DNA of 64,000 nt from Methyloterricola oryzae (GTDB taxonomy: Bacteria; Pseudomonadota; Gammaproteobacteria; Methylococcales; Methylococcaceae), in contig NZ_JYNS01000012.1 of NCBI RefSeq assembly GCF_000934725.1, forward strand, positions 1 through 64,000. Direction: 5' to 3'. The position numbers and the translations under genes were made by a program. How positions within the stretch are numbered: the stretch's first letter is position 1; each line of letters begins with the position of its first letter. Shown one piece after another: positions 35,225-38,992 of this stretch. The notes under the pieces were generated by a model. That model ran no database searches. It was not told the DNA's origin and saw only the letters and a program-made list of their open reading frames with translations.

Positions 35225-35851
35225 TCACTCAAAATTCATCAGCATCTGTTTCACGACACCGCAGAGCGTGGCCTCTTCCCTGATCTCCATCAACGGATAG
35301 CGGGGATTCAAGGGCTTGAGGAAACGCTGACCGCCATCGATGACCAGTTGCTTGAAAGTCGCTTGCGCCGCGGTATCCAGGCGCACCACCACATAACTGC
35401 CATTCCTTGCCTCAAGAGACGGATCGACCACGATGATGCTACCGTTGGCAAACACGGGCTCCATACTGTCACCATGGACCCTAAGAGCGTAGGCACCGTC
35501 CCCAACCCGGCAGGTTACGGGAACCCGTTCGGCATCTGCGGGTGAACGCTGATCCGCCATGTCGCGCCAGTTGCCCGCCGCCACCCACGAGAGCAACGGC
35601 ACATAGGCGACGGGTCGCCCGGCTTCCTCACCTCCCTGGGAACTTTTCATCGCTTCACCCTGCCCCGTCGCCAACCAACGTGGGTCGACATTCAGTGCCG
35701 CGGCGAGATTGAAGACCTCGGTCGTTGATTCCACCAAACCGTTTTCCAATTTGGAAATCATCTGCTGGCTGAGAAGCGAACGCTTTGCCAGATCACGTTG
35801 GGTAAGCCGGGCTGCGGATCGAGCCTGCTTGATTCGAAGTGCGAGCGACAT
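35225..35851 (-). CDS. XRE/S24-family repressor (LexA/CI-like)
   Basis: A 208-residue protein from ATG 35851. The N-terminal helix-turn-helix (about 5-60) shows RLTQRDLAKRSLLSQQMISK. The C-terminal S24 domain has the Ala-Gly self-cleavage site at 92-93 (WVAAGN), Ser129 in HGDSMEP and Lys167 in ATFKQL. It is probably a DNA-damage-cleavable repressor like phage CI. No other phage gene is nearby. The frame extends to 35899, but that part contains the promoter. The mRNA would be almost leaderless, as for lambda cI. Confidence 0.9.
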   Translation of the reverse strand: MSLALRIKQARSAARLTQRDLAKRSLLSQQMISKLENGLVESTTEVFNLAAALNVDPRWLATGQGEAMKSSQGGEEAGRPVAYVPLLSWVAAGNWRDMADQRSPADAERVPVTCRVGDGAYALRVHGDSMEPVFANGSIIVVDPSLEARNGSYVVVRLDTAAQATFKQLVIDGGQRFLKPLNPRYPLMEIREEATLCGVVKQMLMNFE

Positions 35852-35861
35852 AGTGGCAGTT

Positions 35862-35890
35862 AGAATACACAGAACCACAATTGTAGTCAA
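35862..35890 (-). promoter_or_regulatory. Sigma-70 promoter of the S24 repressor
   Basis: On the - strand TTGACT (35890-35885) is 17 bases from TATTCT (35867-35862). Transcription should begin near 35855, only a few bases before ATG 35851, and no Shine-Dalgarno is seen. Confidence 0.7.
35874..35887. promoter_or_regulatory. Operator-like palindrome within the repressor promoter
   Basis: ACCACAATTGTAGT is a 14-bp palindrome with a single mismatch, placed in the spacer and -35 of the repressor promoter, where binding would block RNA polymerase. It suits autorepression by the S24 protein. Confidence 0.55.
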
Positions 35891-35897
35891 GCGGATC

Positions 35898-35929
35898 AAA
35901 AAAACAGCCCGGTGTTTACGCCGGGCTGT
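35898..35929 (-). terminator. Terminator of the sigma/anti-sigma/S8 operon
   Basis: On the - strand ACAGCCCGGCG and CACCGGGCTGT form a stem with a short loop, followed by seven T. It begins about ten bases after the S8 protease stop. Confidence 0.85.
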
Positions 35930-35938
35930 CGGCTTTGA

Positions 35939-37306
35939 TTAAGACGGCGTGTCGCTCGCGAACAGCCCCGATGTCTTCTTGCCTCCTGCCGAGGTGCGAC
36001 TGAGCCCGCATCCCGGCGAGGACGCTCCGACCTGAGCGACCGCATTGCACACGTTGATACTGTGGCTGTCCCCACTGTTCTCTGCACTGCGCTTGAGAAT
36101 GTCGAACACCTGGGCGCTGTTCAATAGTGGTCGTTTCTCCAGAAGCAGCGCAATGACGCCCGAAACGTTCGCAGCAGCAAAGGAGCTGCCGGTCATGAAA
36201 CTGTAACCGTCATGCGGCATCGTCGTCAGAATTTCGTTACCAGGCGCAGCGATGACCCTCGTACCCGACTTCCCTAAGGAAATGGAATCACCCGGAACCG
36301 ACTGCACACCGATTACACCCTTCATGGATGCAGGGAAGGCGTTATTGCTCGCGTGTTTGCTGGGGACAGAGGCTACGACGATGATGCCCTCATCCATGGC
36401 CTTCTGTATCAGCAGGCTGAGAAGAGGGTCCTCGGGGCCCGACAAACTCATATTCAATATCTGCGGCTTCATCAGGATCGCGTTGTTCAACGCGAGCGCC
36501 AAGGTGAAGGAGTTGCACTCGGCTTCAGGTTGCCCCGCCTTCTCTTGCCAGCATGCCTTCAGCGAAATCAGCCTTGCATCTGGCGCGATGCCGACGATGC
36601 CGCGACCGTTGTTGGCGATGGCGGCGATGATCCCGGCCACCGCGGTGCCATGCACATTGCCATCGGAATCGCCGGACTTGGGGACATAGTTTTCGGACCG
36701 GTCGAGTTGTCCGCTGAGATCTTGGTGATCCACGTCCACACCCGTGTCGATCACAGCGATCTTCACGTTCCGACCCGTGACTTCGCGGTGGATGTCATTT
36801 AGCTGCATCTCATGCAATCCGGACTGCAGCTTGTAATAAGGATCCGTGTAGGGTTTAGCGGATGGCGAGTTCATCACGTGGAACTGATTCATCGTCTGCA
36901 CGACGCCGACCCGAGGGTCCGCCCCCAGCCGCTTCATGACGTCGTCGGTGGACTTGGTGGGAACCTCGTAAACGACACAATGAACGCCCAGAGTGGTTAC
37001 AGGCCATTGCGCGACCTGGGACAAGCCGTAGGTTTGTGCCAGGCTCTCGGCAACGCGCTCGCTATAGGTCGAATTGCTGTAACTACCGCGCGCGCGGTAG
37101 GTATTGACGGCATCCGCGATGGGTACCCGATTGACCCGCTCGTCGTTGAAGGTCACCAGGATCTGTGTTTTCTCTAAAGCCACAACGGCACCCGGCTTAG
37201 CGTCGGCACTCACGCCCGAGACATCCCGATTGGTACCGTCAGTGGTACATGCCTGCGTAAGTAGCGCAGCCAGGCAAGCCGTCAAAATCTTCATACTCGG
37301 TTTCAT
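35939..37306 (-). CDS. S8 (subtilisin-like) serine protease, putative lipoprotein
   Basis: A 455-residue precursor. It starts with a signal and lipobox-like LLTQAC (Cys20), so it is probably anchored in the periplasm or outer membrane. Residues about 45-155 look like an inhibitor I9-type propeptide (ILVTFNDERVN through PRVGVVQTMNQF). The catalytic triad is Asp187 (AVIDTGVD), His219 (HGTAVAG) and Ser375 (GSSFAAANVSG). A Cys-containing tail follows. It is third in the operon after an ECF sigma factor and anti-sigma factor, 19 bases downstream, which suggests regulation of, or by, that pair. Confidence 0.92.
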   Translation of the reverse strand: MKPSMKILTACLAALLTQACTTDGTNRDVSGVSADAKPGAVVALEKTQILVTFNDERVNRVPIADAVNTYRARGSYSNSTYSERVAESLAQTYGLSQVAQWPVTTLGVHCVVYEVPTKSTDDVMKRLGADPRVGVVQTMNQFHVMNSPSAKPYTDPYYKLQSGLHEMQLNDIHREVTGRNVKIAVIDTGVDVDHQDLSGQLDRSENYVPKSGDSDGNVHGTAVAGIIAAIANNGRGIVGIAPDARLISLKACWQEKAGQPEAECNSFTLALALNNAILMKPQILNMSLSGPEDPLLSLLIQKAMDEGIIVVASVPSKHASNNAFPASMKGVIGVQSVPGDSISLGKSGTRVIAAPGNEILTTMPHDGYSFMTGSSFAAANVSGVIALLLEKRPLLNSAQVFDILKRSAENSGDSHSINVCNAVAQVGASSPGCGLSRTSAGGKKTSGLFASDTPS

Positions 37307-37325
37307 GGCGGATGCCTCACCTAGC

Positions 37326-38036
37326 TCATTTATCAGACGAGAATCCCGGACCCAGTACCGGCTCGGCGAACACCACCTTGGTGTCTTGGCGCAGCCGCGA
37401 CAGTGCTTCGGCCAGATCGCGACCGTGCGCGATACGTACCGTGTAAACCCCTTTCAGGCTCGGGCCATCCACCAGTTCGCCCTGAACGGCTGCGATCAAT
37501 CGGCTGATTTCCTGCTTGGATGCATCACCGGAAAACACCAGTTGCACATCGCTTCCCGAGTACTTGGCCATGCTCCCCGGCATCGCCAATGTCTGGTATA
37601 CCTGTGCATCATCGGTAGCCGGACCTTCGCCGCGCAGCAGGAACGGGATGACCGCTGCCATGGTCACCGTCGCAAGGGCCGGCACCAGGTACTTCGGCGA
37701 CATCCACTCGGACAGCCAACCGGCAAAATGCGCGAGCCCGGAAACACGAGCCGTTTTCGGCGCAGGCGCCGCCTTTGCCTGCTCTTCCCGGCGAATCTGA
37801 ACCATCAGACGATCGAACGAGGGCTTGTAGGAAATCTCCATGACAGGCTCACGCTGCAGCCCAGCCACGAGGAATTCCGCGCTGGCCATTTCCCGACGAC
37901 AGGTCAGGCATACCTTCAAGTGGTTGCGCACCTTGTCCAGATCGCTGCCAACCAGAGTGCCATTGGCGTACCAGGGCAGCAACATCAACACGTCGTCATG
38001 GTCAGAATAAACCGACTTCTGTGTCTGCTTGTTCAT
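37326..38036 (-). CDS. Anti-sigma factor with subtilisin-propeptide-like C-terminus
   Basis: The N-terminal 60 residues are a zf-HC2-type anti-sigma domain (HLKVCLTCRREM, the His-x3-Cys-x2-Cys pattern). One membrane helix follows near 112-132 (YLVPALATVTMAAVIPFLL). The periplasmic C-terminus (about 160-232) reads VQLVFSGDASKQEISRLIA, GPSLKGVYTVRI and LRQDTKVVFAEPV. This is the pattern of inhibitor I9/S8 propeptides. The start overlaps the sigma stop by four bases (ATGA). It likely holds the ECF sigma at the membrane until a signal reaches the C-terminal domain. The fold of the C-terminus is my reading and needs a profile search. Confidence 0.87.
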   Translation of the reverse strand: MNKQTQKSVYSDHDDVLMLLPWYANGTLVGSDLDKVRNHLKVCLTCRREMASAEFLVAGLQREPVMEISYKPSFDRLMVQIRREEQAKAAPAPKTARVSGLAHFAGWLSEWMSPKYLVPALATVTMAAVIPFLLRGEGPATDDAQVYQTLAMPGSMAKYSGSDVQLVFSGDASKQEISRLIAAVQGELVDGPSLKGVYTVRIAHGRDLAEALSRLRQDTKVVFAEPVLGPGFSSDK

Positions 38037-38623
38037 AGAGATTCACCGTTGTGCTCAAATGGGCTCGAGTCATTCAGTTCTTCAACCAGCGACTGCAGTT
38101 TCTTCCTCGCGTGGAAAACGCGGGTCTTGACCGTGTTCTCGGGGCAACCAAGCATGTCCGCAATCTCGCTGTAATGCATGCCGTGATGGTATGTCAACTC
38201 CAACACGGCCCGTTGCTCAGGCGAAATCCGGCTCAATGCCGCCTCCAGCCAATCATCCAACTCCACACGCTGCATGGCGCTGTCACGAACGCCAGGCACC
38301 AGTTCCTCGAATTCATCCAGCGACACGAGCTCGGTTTGGCCCCGGTCGGACATCGCCTTCAAGCACTTCTTGTAGGCGATACCCAAAATCCAGGTGGAAA
38401 CTTTGGCCTCGTTATTAAACGAGGCTGACTTGTTCCAAACCACGAGCATCACGTCGTTGATGACTTCCTCGATCAGGTCCAGTCGCCGCGTGACTCGATA
38501 CGAAAACCGAAACAGTCTCTGATAGTAACGCTTGTAAAATATCTCAAAGGCGCGCTGATCCGCGTTGCAGATACTTGCCAGCAAGTCTTCGTCGCTGATC
38601 TCGTCGCGTACATTCTCGGCCAT
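38033..38623 (-). CDS. ECF sigma factor
   Basis: A 196-residue sigma-70 family protein with region 2 (AFEIFYKRYYQRLFRFSYRV to VWNKSASF) and region 4 (ISPEQRAVLELTYHHGMHY, then EIADMLGCPENTVKTRVFHA). Regions 1 and 3 are missing, so it is of the ECF type. I place the start at ATG 38623; the frame reaches 38689, but a TATAAT sits between. It should direct polymerase to its own operon and other targets, released from the adjacent anti-sigma factor. Confidence 0.92.
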   Translation of the reverse strand: MAENVRDEISDEDLLASICNADQRAFEIFYKRYYQRLFRFSYRVTRRLDLIEEVINDVMLVVWNKSASFNNEAKVSTWILGIAYKKCLKAMSDRGQTELVSLDEFEELVPGVRDSAMQRVELDDWLEAALSRISPEQRAVLELTYHHGMHYSEIADMLGCPENTVKTRVFHARKKLQSLVEELNDSSPFEHNGESL

Positions 38624-38663: not shown

Positions 38664-38992
38664 GAACCCGGCTTGTCAGATCGTTGCACTTTCGGCCCCT
38701 TCCCAGGCTGGAACCCCTGTTTAGCGCACTACCAGTCGTCTGCCCTTTGAGTTCCGCTTTTCAGGCAAAAGGTTCATTGAAAATGAGATGGGTGACATAT
38801 TTTTTTATACTCCTGCTCCGGCCTGTCGTTCCAAGACCGCCCCACGCCTCGACGGCCGCCCAGACAGGGCTAAGCCACGGCGGCGATCCTTGACACTGCC
38901 TTCGTGCTTCGGCTTAAATTCATCGTTTTCTCCCGCGAACGCCGGCCCTCGCCATGGAATGCGCTTCCGGCTGCCCGACCCATCGAGAACCT

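Follow-up and report, generated by a model that had tools for sequence, protein, structure and literature searches.

We examined a 64,000-nucleotide stretch of the Methyloterricola oryzae genome (contig NZ_JYNS01000012.1, positions 1 to 64,000; hereafter, the window), in which three genes on the - strand encode an extracytoplasmic function (ECF) sigma factor (38033-38623), an anti-sigma factor (37326-38036), and a 455-amino-acid subtilase of peptidase family S8 (35939-37306). In the list of open reading frames (ORFs), the start of the anti-sigma gene overlaps the stop codon of the sigma gene, and the protease gene follows after a gap of 19 nt. (We assumed an ATG start for the sigma gene; the GTG at 38689 is also possible.) An ECF-type promoter (TGAACCTTTTGCCTGAAAAGCGGAACTCA; 38776-38748, - strand) precedes the sigma gene, and its consensus, TGAACY-N14-SGRNAYNNA, is kept 5' of the sigma genes of homologous operons. 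An earlier note on this DNA had described three tightly spaced or overlapping genes on the - strand that end at one terminator, which agrees with the ORF list and with a stem-loop and T-run at 35930-35903 (- strand). The terminator scan is not significant by itself because it found 2 such sites in the scanned stretch and shuffled sequences average 2.6. As argued below, the three genes may form a conserved operon for envelope signalling, in which a subtilase-prodomain-like module on the anti-sigma factor would serve as a decoy prodomain for the neighbouring protease. We consider this the best explanation and hold it tentatively.

Pfam bore out the identities that the earlier note gave to the three proteins. 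The sigma factor matches Sigma70_r2 (5.2e-9) and Sigma70_r4_2 (2e-16) and has only sigma-70 regions 2 and 4, as ECF sigma factors do by definition; it scores 91.4 bits against TIGR02937 (cut-off 42.9). Among the best 25 of 95 NCBIfam rows, the general sigma70-ECF superfamily for this protein was the sole row above its cut-off, and there was none for the anti-sigma factor or the protease. The protease matches Peptidase_S8 (PF00082, 1.5e-38). The head of the anti-sigma factor (residues 15-47) matches zf-HC2 (PF13490) at 21.0 bits, just under the Pfam cut-off of 22.2, and 20 of the 21 anti-sigma factors in our alignment A1 match this family (E <= 0.1). (A1 was built without L035 and L039, which were read through a stop; L033, a near copy of L030; L027; and L049.) H39, C43, and C46 are present in at least 90% of A1, so that the head has the HxxxCxxC motif of class I zf-HC2 proteins and is encoded beside a sigma gene; the pair of cysteines is absent from the anti-sigma factor of locus L028. 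A single hydrophobic segment (about residues 114-135), which is a helix in the AlphaFold model, presumably crosses the membrane, and this topology would place the C-terminal tail in the periplasm.

The earlier note had likened this tail to I9/S8 propeptides and had proposed profile searches and structure prediction as a check; both kinds of comparison found the similarity. PF22148 (the Fervidolysin_NPro-like prodomain) matches residues 173-226 of the window anti-sigma factor with E = 8e-4 (20.2 bits, cut-off 21), and at E <= 0.1 it matches 15 of the 21 proteins in A1 (best 8.5e-6). AlphaFold2, run on A1, predicts a beta-alpha-beta-beta-alpha-beta domain at residues 163-226 (37359-37550, - strand), with block-mean pLDDT of 90-98; we refer to this I9-type, prodomain-like domain as the module. 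Its top two Foldseek matches in the PDB are subtilisin prosegments (3cnq_P, E = 3.8e-3; 3whi_B, E = 6.7e-3). In the VIA comparison, S8-family prodomains fill rows 1-7 (Z of 8.4-8.9), including 3cnq_P (Z 8.9, 69 residues aligned, rmsd 4.5), 1spb_P (Z 8.9, 68 aligned, rmsd 3.7), and 9fic (Z 8.7, 69 aligned, rmsd 2.5). The predicted fold thus resembles that of solved S8 prosegments, by a small margin over unrelated VIA rows. This predicted fold is shared with the fervidolysin prodomain (PF22148), the propeptides of subtilisin and Tk-subtilisin, POIA1, and ASP-ORF2 of Aeromonas; POIA1 and ASP-ORF2 are forms that act in trans.

We also compared the module directly with the prodomains of the neighbouring S8 proteases. 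With hhalign, an alignment of 54 modules matched an alignment of 40 such prodomains (85.9%, E = 5.3e-6, score 33.1), and 100 column shuffles of this comparison gave a mean score of 9.8 and a maximum of 20.1. With our first, whole alignments, this comparison gave a weak match (10.6%, E = 0.0029), which became clear only with wider alignments. Module HMMs, when run over 63 loci with other S8 genes, matched six ORFs; all six are S8 proteases and each match lies just before the catalytic domain, with E values (about 1e-4 to 0.02) that are individually weak. An independent S8 protease at L175 (L175:2711-5092, + strand) is also matched by the module HMM ahead of its catalytic domain. PF22148 matches this protein in two stretches (3.6e-22), with the better match at its very C-terminus, and such prodomains share an AEP-type end with the module. 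On profile, fold, shuffles, and module HMM matches taken together, we reject a chance likeness. Overall, these comparisons of sequence and predicted structure support the view that the C-terminal domain of the anti-sigma factor is subtilase-prodomain-like.

The protease has a prodomain of its own, at residues ~47-153 (36848-37168, - strand), as the earlier note had proposed from a propeptide-like region. This is seen in alignment A2 of the S8 proteases and in the model, of which residues 46 onward align with solved pro-subtilisins: the match to pro-Tk-subtilisin (2zwp_A; Z 36.5, 331 aligned, rmsd 3.4) extends over both prodomain and catalytic domain. The triad D187/H219/S375 was also read correctly, and Asp, His, and Ser are complete in 56 of 57 homologs (the remaining one, L168, is truncated before the Ser). 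The column of subtilisin Asn155, which forms the oxyanion hole, holds Ser316 in the window protease (codon at 36359-36361, - strand). In a FastTree of the 57 catalytic domains (277 columns), 40 proteases, including the window's, lie on one side of a branch with local support of 0.915, and 39 of these 40 lack the Asn (the exception is L023). Among the other 17 proteases, 15 have the Asn; L186 has a Gly beside an Asn and is probably misaligned, and L168 is truncated. (The protease of L036 is partial in A2 and was counted whole for triad and oxyanion column.) When the module was compared by hhalign with the prodomains of nine S8 proteases with intact Asn, the score (19.6, 6.8%) was no better than chance because shuffles reached 21.4. 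C110, C252, and C264 are invariant in A2, and many members show, on reading of the sequences, a lipobox-like Cys (signal/lipobox-like LTQAC near the N-terminus of the window protein).

Is the module gene consistently next to an S8 gene? Searching 61 genomes with the window anti-sigma factor gave 26 places in 18 genomes. An S8 gene adjoins in 20 of these, a C14 caspase gene in one (L028), and one is a response-regulator fusion (L027); the other four have none of these (L038, L050, and two broken copies, L039 and L049, the latter with the head only). We also searched 369 genomes of the class with a family profile, which matched 58 genomes; from the 72 rows listed we took 29 places (L161-L189), 26 of them with the module at E <= 0.01 (marginally in two of the 26, L180 and L183), and 19 of the 72 rows, which were head-region matches, lie outside the set that we read. 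Of the 22 testable places in the class, 17 have S8, one has C14 (L181), and four have no protease (L164, L170, L178, and L184). This tally leaves out L179, L180, and L183, where little of the contig is left past the anti-sigma gene, and L175, where the module is inside an S8 protein. In total, an S8 gene is beside the module gene in 37 of 48 testable places, which were recruited without reference to S8. As a control, we used 23 ECF/zf-HC2 loci that were matched via the head region (L187-L209; three of the 29 places and 20 more of the 72 rows). Twenty-one of these lack both module and S8, and 20 of the 21 have room downstream (L191, with just 0.28 kb, was not counted as testable), so S8 was found beside 0 of 20 testable module-less loci. 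On this control we reject chance adjacency. The two controls with S8 have a module-like tail (L200, 7e-4; L193, by eye only).

A search from the S8 side gave a similar picture. Of 539 confirmed loci we kept the 80 best and first read the 17 nearest relatives of the window protease (L051-L066 and L124). With L063 cut at the contig end, 15 of the 16 testable loci have the module gene (L056 weakly, at 3e-4; it is absent from L124). At the 63 more distant S8 loci, neither an ECF sigma factor, nor a zf-HC2 head, nor a separate module was found above our thresholds. The loci read first include some from Methylococcaceae, Acidobacteriota, Nevskia, Dokdonella fugitiva, Burkholderiales, Duganella, Steroidobacteraceae, Spongiibacteraceae, and Desulfobulbaceae. 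The linkage of module and S8 is old. The earlier note had named two findings that would speak against its proposal, a tail unlike propeptides and homologs that never adjoin an S8 gene; neither holds, because the tail resembles a prodomain and adjacency to S8 is conserved among the homologs. Of the places without a protease, L164, L170, and L178 are sigma/anti-sigma pairs with the module, and L170 and L178 are flanked by a dapB-like gene and a carA-like gene (by eye).

In some operons the partner is another type of protease. A C14 caspase is in the S8 position at L028 (4e-35), L181 (3e-37), L231 (8e-38), L232 (4e-39), and L225 (2e-11). (L231, L232, and L225 came from a search with A3, a C14-linked query, and are outside the 48 places; the L225 anti-sigma factor has no Pfam match and was recognized by its match to A3 alone, at 8.5e-10.) L028 is a second sigma/anti-sigma operon in the window's own genome (L028:4371-6564, - strand, contig C9), with the same module and with C14 in place of S8. 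The genome also encodes a single protein in which a hydrophobic helix connects a receiver domain (1.8e-22) to the module (L027:5560-6375, - strand, contig C4). There is no sigma factor and no protease near this fusion, and SCO1-like and multicopper-oxidase-like genes lie nearby (by eye). No second fusion of receiver and module was found among the matches listed for 38 family genomes.

The end of the module varies with the partner. The window module ends in an AEP motif (residues 224-226), and 35 of the 40 modules that are paired with oxyanion-less proteases have Glu at this position (Pro in 33 of 40). Glu is found in 3 of 14 modules with other S8 proteases and in 8 of 13 modules without S8. 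(The alignment of the end motif is loose for a few rows.) In solved complexes, the tail of the prodomain enters the active site of the protease. For the module, inhibition of this classical kind is not general, because the tails are not conserved and eight places have no protease neighbour. The idea of a product inhibitor with a conserved C-terminal tail is unsupported, as both tail length and end motif vary. The earlier note's interpretation stands in part. The prodomain-like tail and the conserved S8 neighbour agree with its structural half. Its functional half, in which the tail would be an inhibitor or bait and the state of the protease would control sigma release, is conjectural; the variable tail and the lack of AEP beside most S8 proteases of the other group count against simple inhibition.

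Of 56 operons, 38 have the sequence TGAAC 5' of the sigma gene (33/38 in the window clade), as compared to a chance level that we estimate at about one quarter with equal base frequencies. (We searched 400 nt upstream in the window and up to 330 nt elsewhere, and left out L040, with a partial sigma gene, and L058, with no sigma gene on its contig.) In 31 chosen sites, column 6 is Y in 30, column 26 is a pyrimidine in all 31, and column 29 is A in 29. Only these three columns are independent, because columns 21-25 and 28 were used in choosing the 31 of 38 sites. The operon is probably self-activated, because the conserved promoter precedes the sigma gene.

In the window's own genome, the promoter pattern has 14 exact matches versus 2 for a reversed control, and six relatives have 3 to 7 matches per genome versus 0 to 5 for controls. 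Genes 3' of the matches in the own genome include the sigma gene itself, a TonB receptor, a LuxR-type regulator, secreted proteins, a large multicopper-oxidase-like protein (by eye; a fragment with no Pfam match), and a PEP-CTERM/exosortase acyltransferase (TIGR03694, 1.1e-74; L242:1671-2603, + strand; motif at C4:203036). A look-alike of the oxidase-like protein in genome G001 (L262; weak Cu-oxidase_3 match) also follows the motif, and in the relatives the matched genes include those for sigma factors and for a PEP-CTERM protein (L252). Several other matches in the own genome look fortuitous. Exosortase (PF09721) is found in 18 of 18 relatives with the anti-sigma factor versus 24 of 43 others (p = 2.7e-4) and, across the class, in 16 of 24 genomes with the module versus 111 of 345 (p = 9e-4), with neither p value corrected for shared ancestry. 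The link is not exclusive: 8 of the 24 module genomes in the class have no match to PF09721. Promoter matches and co-occurrence hint at a link to the PEP-CTERM/exosortase system, and both are correlative.

These results could be explained as follows. The anti-sigma factor would hold the sigma factor at the membrane via its zf-HC2 head and would expose the module to the periplasm. The envelope protease from the same operon would recognize the module as subtilases recognize prodomains, by docking at the surface and not necessarily by having its active site plugged. Once mature, the protease, engaging this decoy prodomain, would start the loss of the anti-sigma factor (a private site-1 step), and the freed sigma factor would use the TGAAC promoter to transcribe its own operon, along with envelope or surface genes, so that the protease would be both trigger and product of the circuit. 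As judged from gene content and alignments, the old linkage, the exchange of S8 for C14, and the Glu-Pro end beside one S8 clade would favour a functional pairing. We think that the module and the protease probably interact, and, given that interaction, we lean towards the protease acting upstream of sigma release. A more ambitious scheme is a widespread class of sigma switches in which the decoy competes with the own prodomain of a catalytically slowed subtilase, so that completed maturation or export of the protease in the envelope would itself be the signal for sigma release; S8 and C14 would be interchangeable, and the module could be carried over to other outputs, as in the response-regulator fusion. 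This scheme has a low probability in our view.

Several observations weigh against the decoy proposal. The fold alone is not decisive because it is common: VIA gives Z 8.1 for an unrelated ribosomal chain and Z 7 for many other chains. Every Foldseek row for the module is above E = 1e-3, the window anti-sigma factor taken singly is just below the PF22148 cut-off, and phmmer of this protein against PDB sequences found no prodomain (the best rows were superoxide reductase, E = 0.07, and ChrR, E = 0.12). Eight of the 48 places, two of them broken, have neither S8, C14, nor fusion, and genomes G372 and G151 keep the sigma factor and an intact AEP module and have no A2-type S8 protease at E <= 1e-8. 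The length past the end motif ranges from ~2 to 15 residues, and AEP is missing from the modules beside most S8 proteases that retain the oxyanion Asn. Loss of this Asn strongly slows catalysis by subtilisin, and its absence, which the earlier note overlooked, argues for weak catalysis in the window clade.

If the protease is simply an output of the sigma factor, then the module might inhibit it, help it to fold, or titrate it at the membrane, and release would have another trigger, such as proteolysis of the DegS/RseP type. Free prodomains do act as inhibitors and chaperones of subtilases, and complexes of this kind are among the fold matches (1v5i, POIA1 with subtilisin; 3wqb, with the chaperone ASP-ORF2). 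The sigma-type promoter implies that the protease is probably made mainly when the sigma factor is free. In addition, a secreted homolog of the window protease's prodomain is encoded as a separate protein in the own genome (L220:6386-6919, - strand; C4:228885-229418); it has no catalytic domain, and its end lies at about the end of the prodomain in the protease. This is a possible inhibitor in trans; its gene adjoins an efflux-pump-like gene (HME-RND, by eye), and none of the 14 promoter matches in that genome is close to it. However, the protease already has its own prodomain, several modules stop too soon past the last strand to reach an active site in the manner of prodomain tails, and a caspase in the S8 position is hard to square with a dedicated S8 chaperone. 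We consider feedback alone unlikely, and we favour a protease that acts on the anti-sigma factor because the partner can be another type of protease and the module ends do not fit classical inhibition.

Another explanation is that an old prodomain fold was reused as a general periplasmic sensor of some other protein or ligand, while S8 or C14 would be linked to it because it processes surface proteins, for example PEP-CTERM/exosortase products, that belong to the same regulon. Modules without any S8, the response-regulator fusion, and the possible exosortase link agree with this. On the other hand, S8 adjacency depends strongly on the module, and the Glu and Pro of the end motif are prevalent beside the window clade, so a general sensor seems rather improbable. 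Finally, the S8 proteases of the clade might be nearly inactive, receptor-like proteins whose binding to the module, gated by the state of their own prodomain, controls the sigma factor without cleavage; this would fit the loss of the Asn within a single tree group that keeps fold and triad, but it is very unlikely given that strict conservation of Asp, His, and Ser argues that the chemistry is still used, that PC2-type convertases work with Asp at that site, and that most outgroup proteases in the same type of operon keep the Asn.

The sigma-E/RseA system and other ECF/anti-sigma systems are controlled by regulated intramembrane proteolysis. The decoy proposal shares with them an ECF sigma factor, a single-pass anti-sigma factor with a periplasmic sensory part, and a putatively self-activated operon. 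It differs in that the outer part is a prodomain-like module with a private S8 (or C14) protease in the operon, instead of the shared DegS and RseP. As compared to the prodomains of subtilases, the module is fused to a membrane anti-sigma factor, outside of a protease that has its own prodomain. PEP-CTERM/exosortase genes are regulated via PrsK/PrsR and RpoN; that system may have targets in common with this one (the TIGR03694 acyltransferase and the PEP-CTERM protein), which is a correlative likeness, but it combines a two-component system with sigma-54 instead of ECF, anti-sigma, and S8. According to PMC8999054, ECF54 genes are found near subtilases and caspase-like (CHAT) proteins, with a carboxypeptidase also in the context of the group, proteolytic control has been proposed for them, and they are described as lacking an anti-sigma factor. 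In contrast, the window operon has a zf-HC2 anti-sigma factor with the module and, by gene context, does not fit ECF54, with which it shares the subtilase. We found no description of a prodomain-bearing anti-sigma factor in the open-licence literature, and a term look-up within parts of PMC7406223 and PMC2605481 found nothing of this kind. The pairing of module and protease suggests an undescribed wiring between an envelope protease and gene control. Provided that it is functional, the maturation state of an envelope protease would reach transcription by a direct physical route, outside of the DegS/RseP scheme, and this would explain what many ECF/anti-sigma/S8 operons sense. Also, the oxyanion-less clade is a natural test of how subtilases function without that Asn, and the module offers a way to ask when prodomains turned into signalling modules.

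Directly past the operon's terminator, the window has a gene for a LexA/cI-like protein with helix-turn-helix and S24 peptidase domains (35225-35899, - strand; Pfam). Elsewhere, a TorF-like putative porin (TIGR02001/Gcw_chp) is encoded beside the broken anti-sigma copies (L049:4392-5204, + strand; L039:6889-7785, - strand; the profile scan was for L049 only), and the ends of porin-like genes are visible by eye just 5' of the sigma gene in L044-L046.

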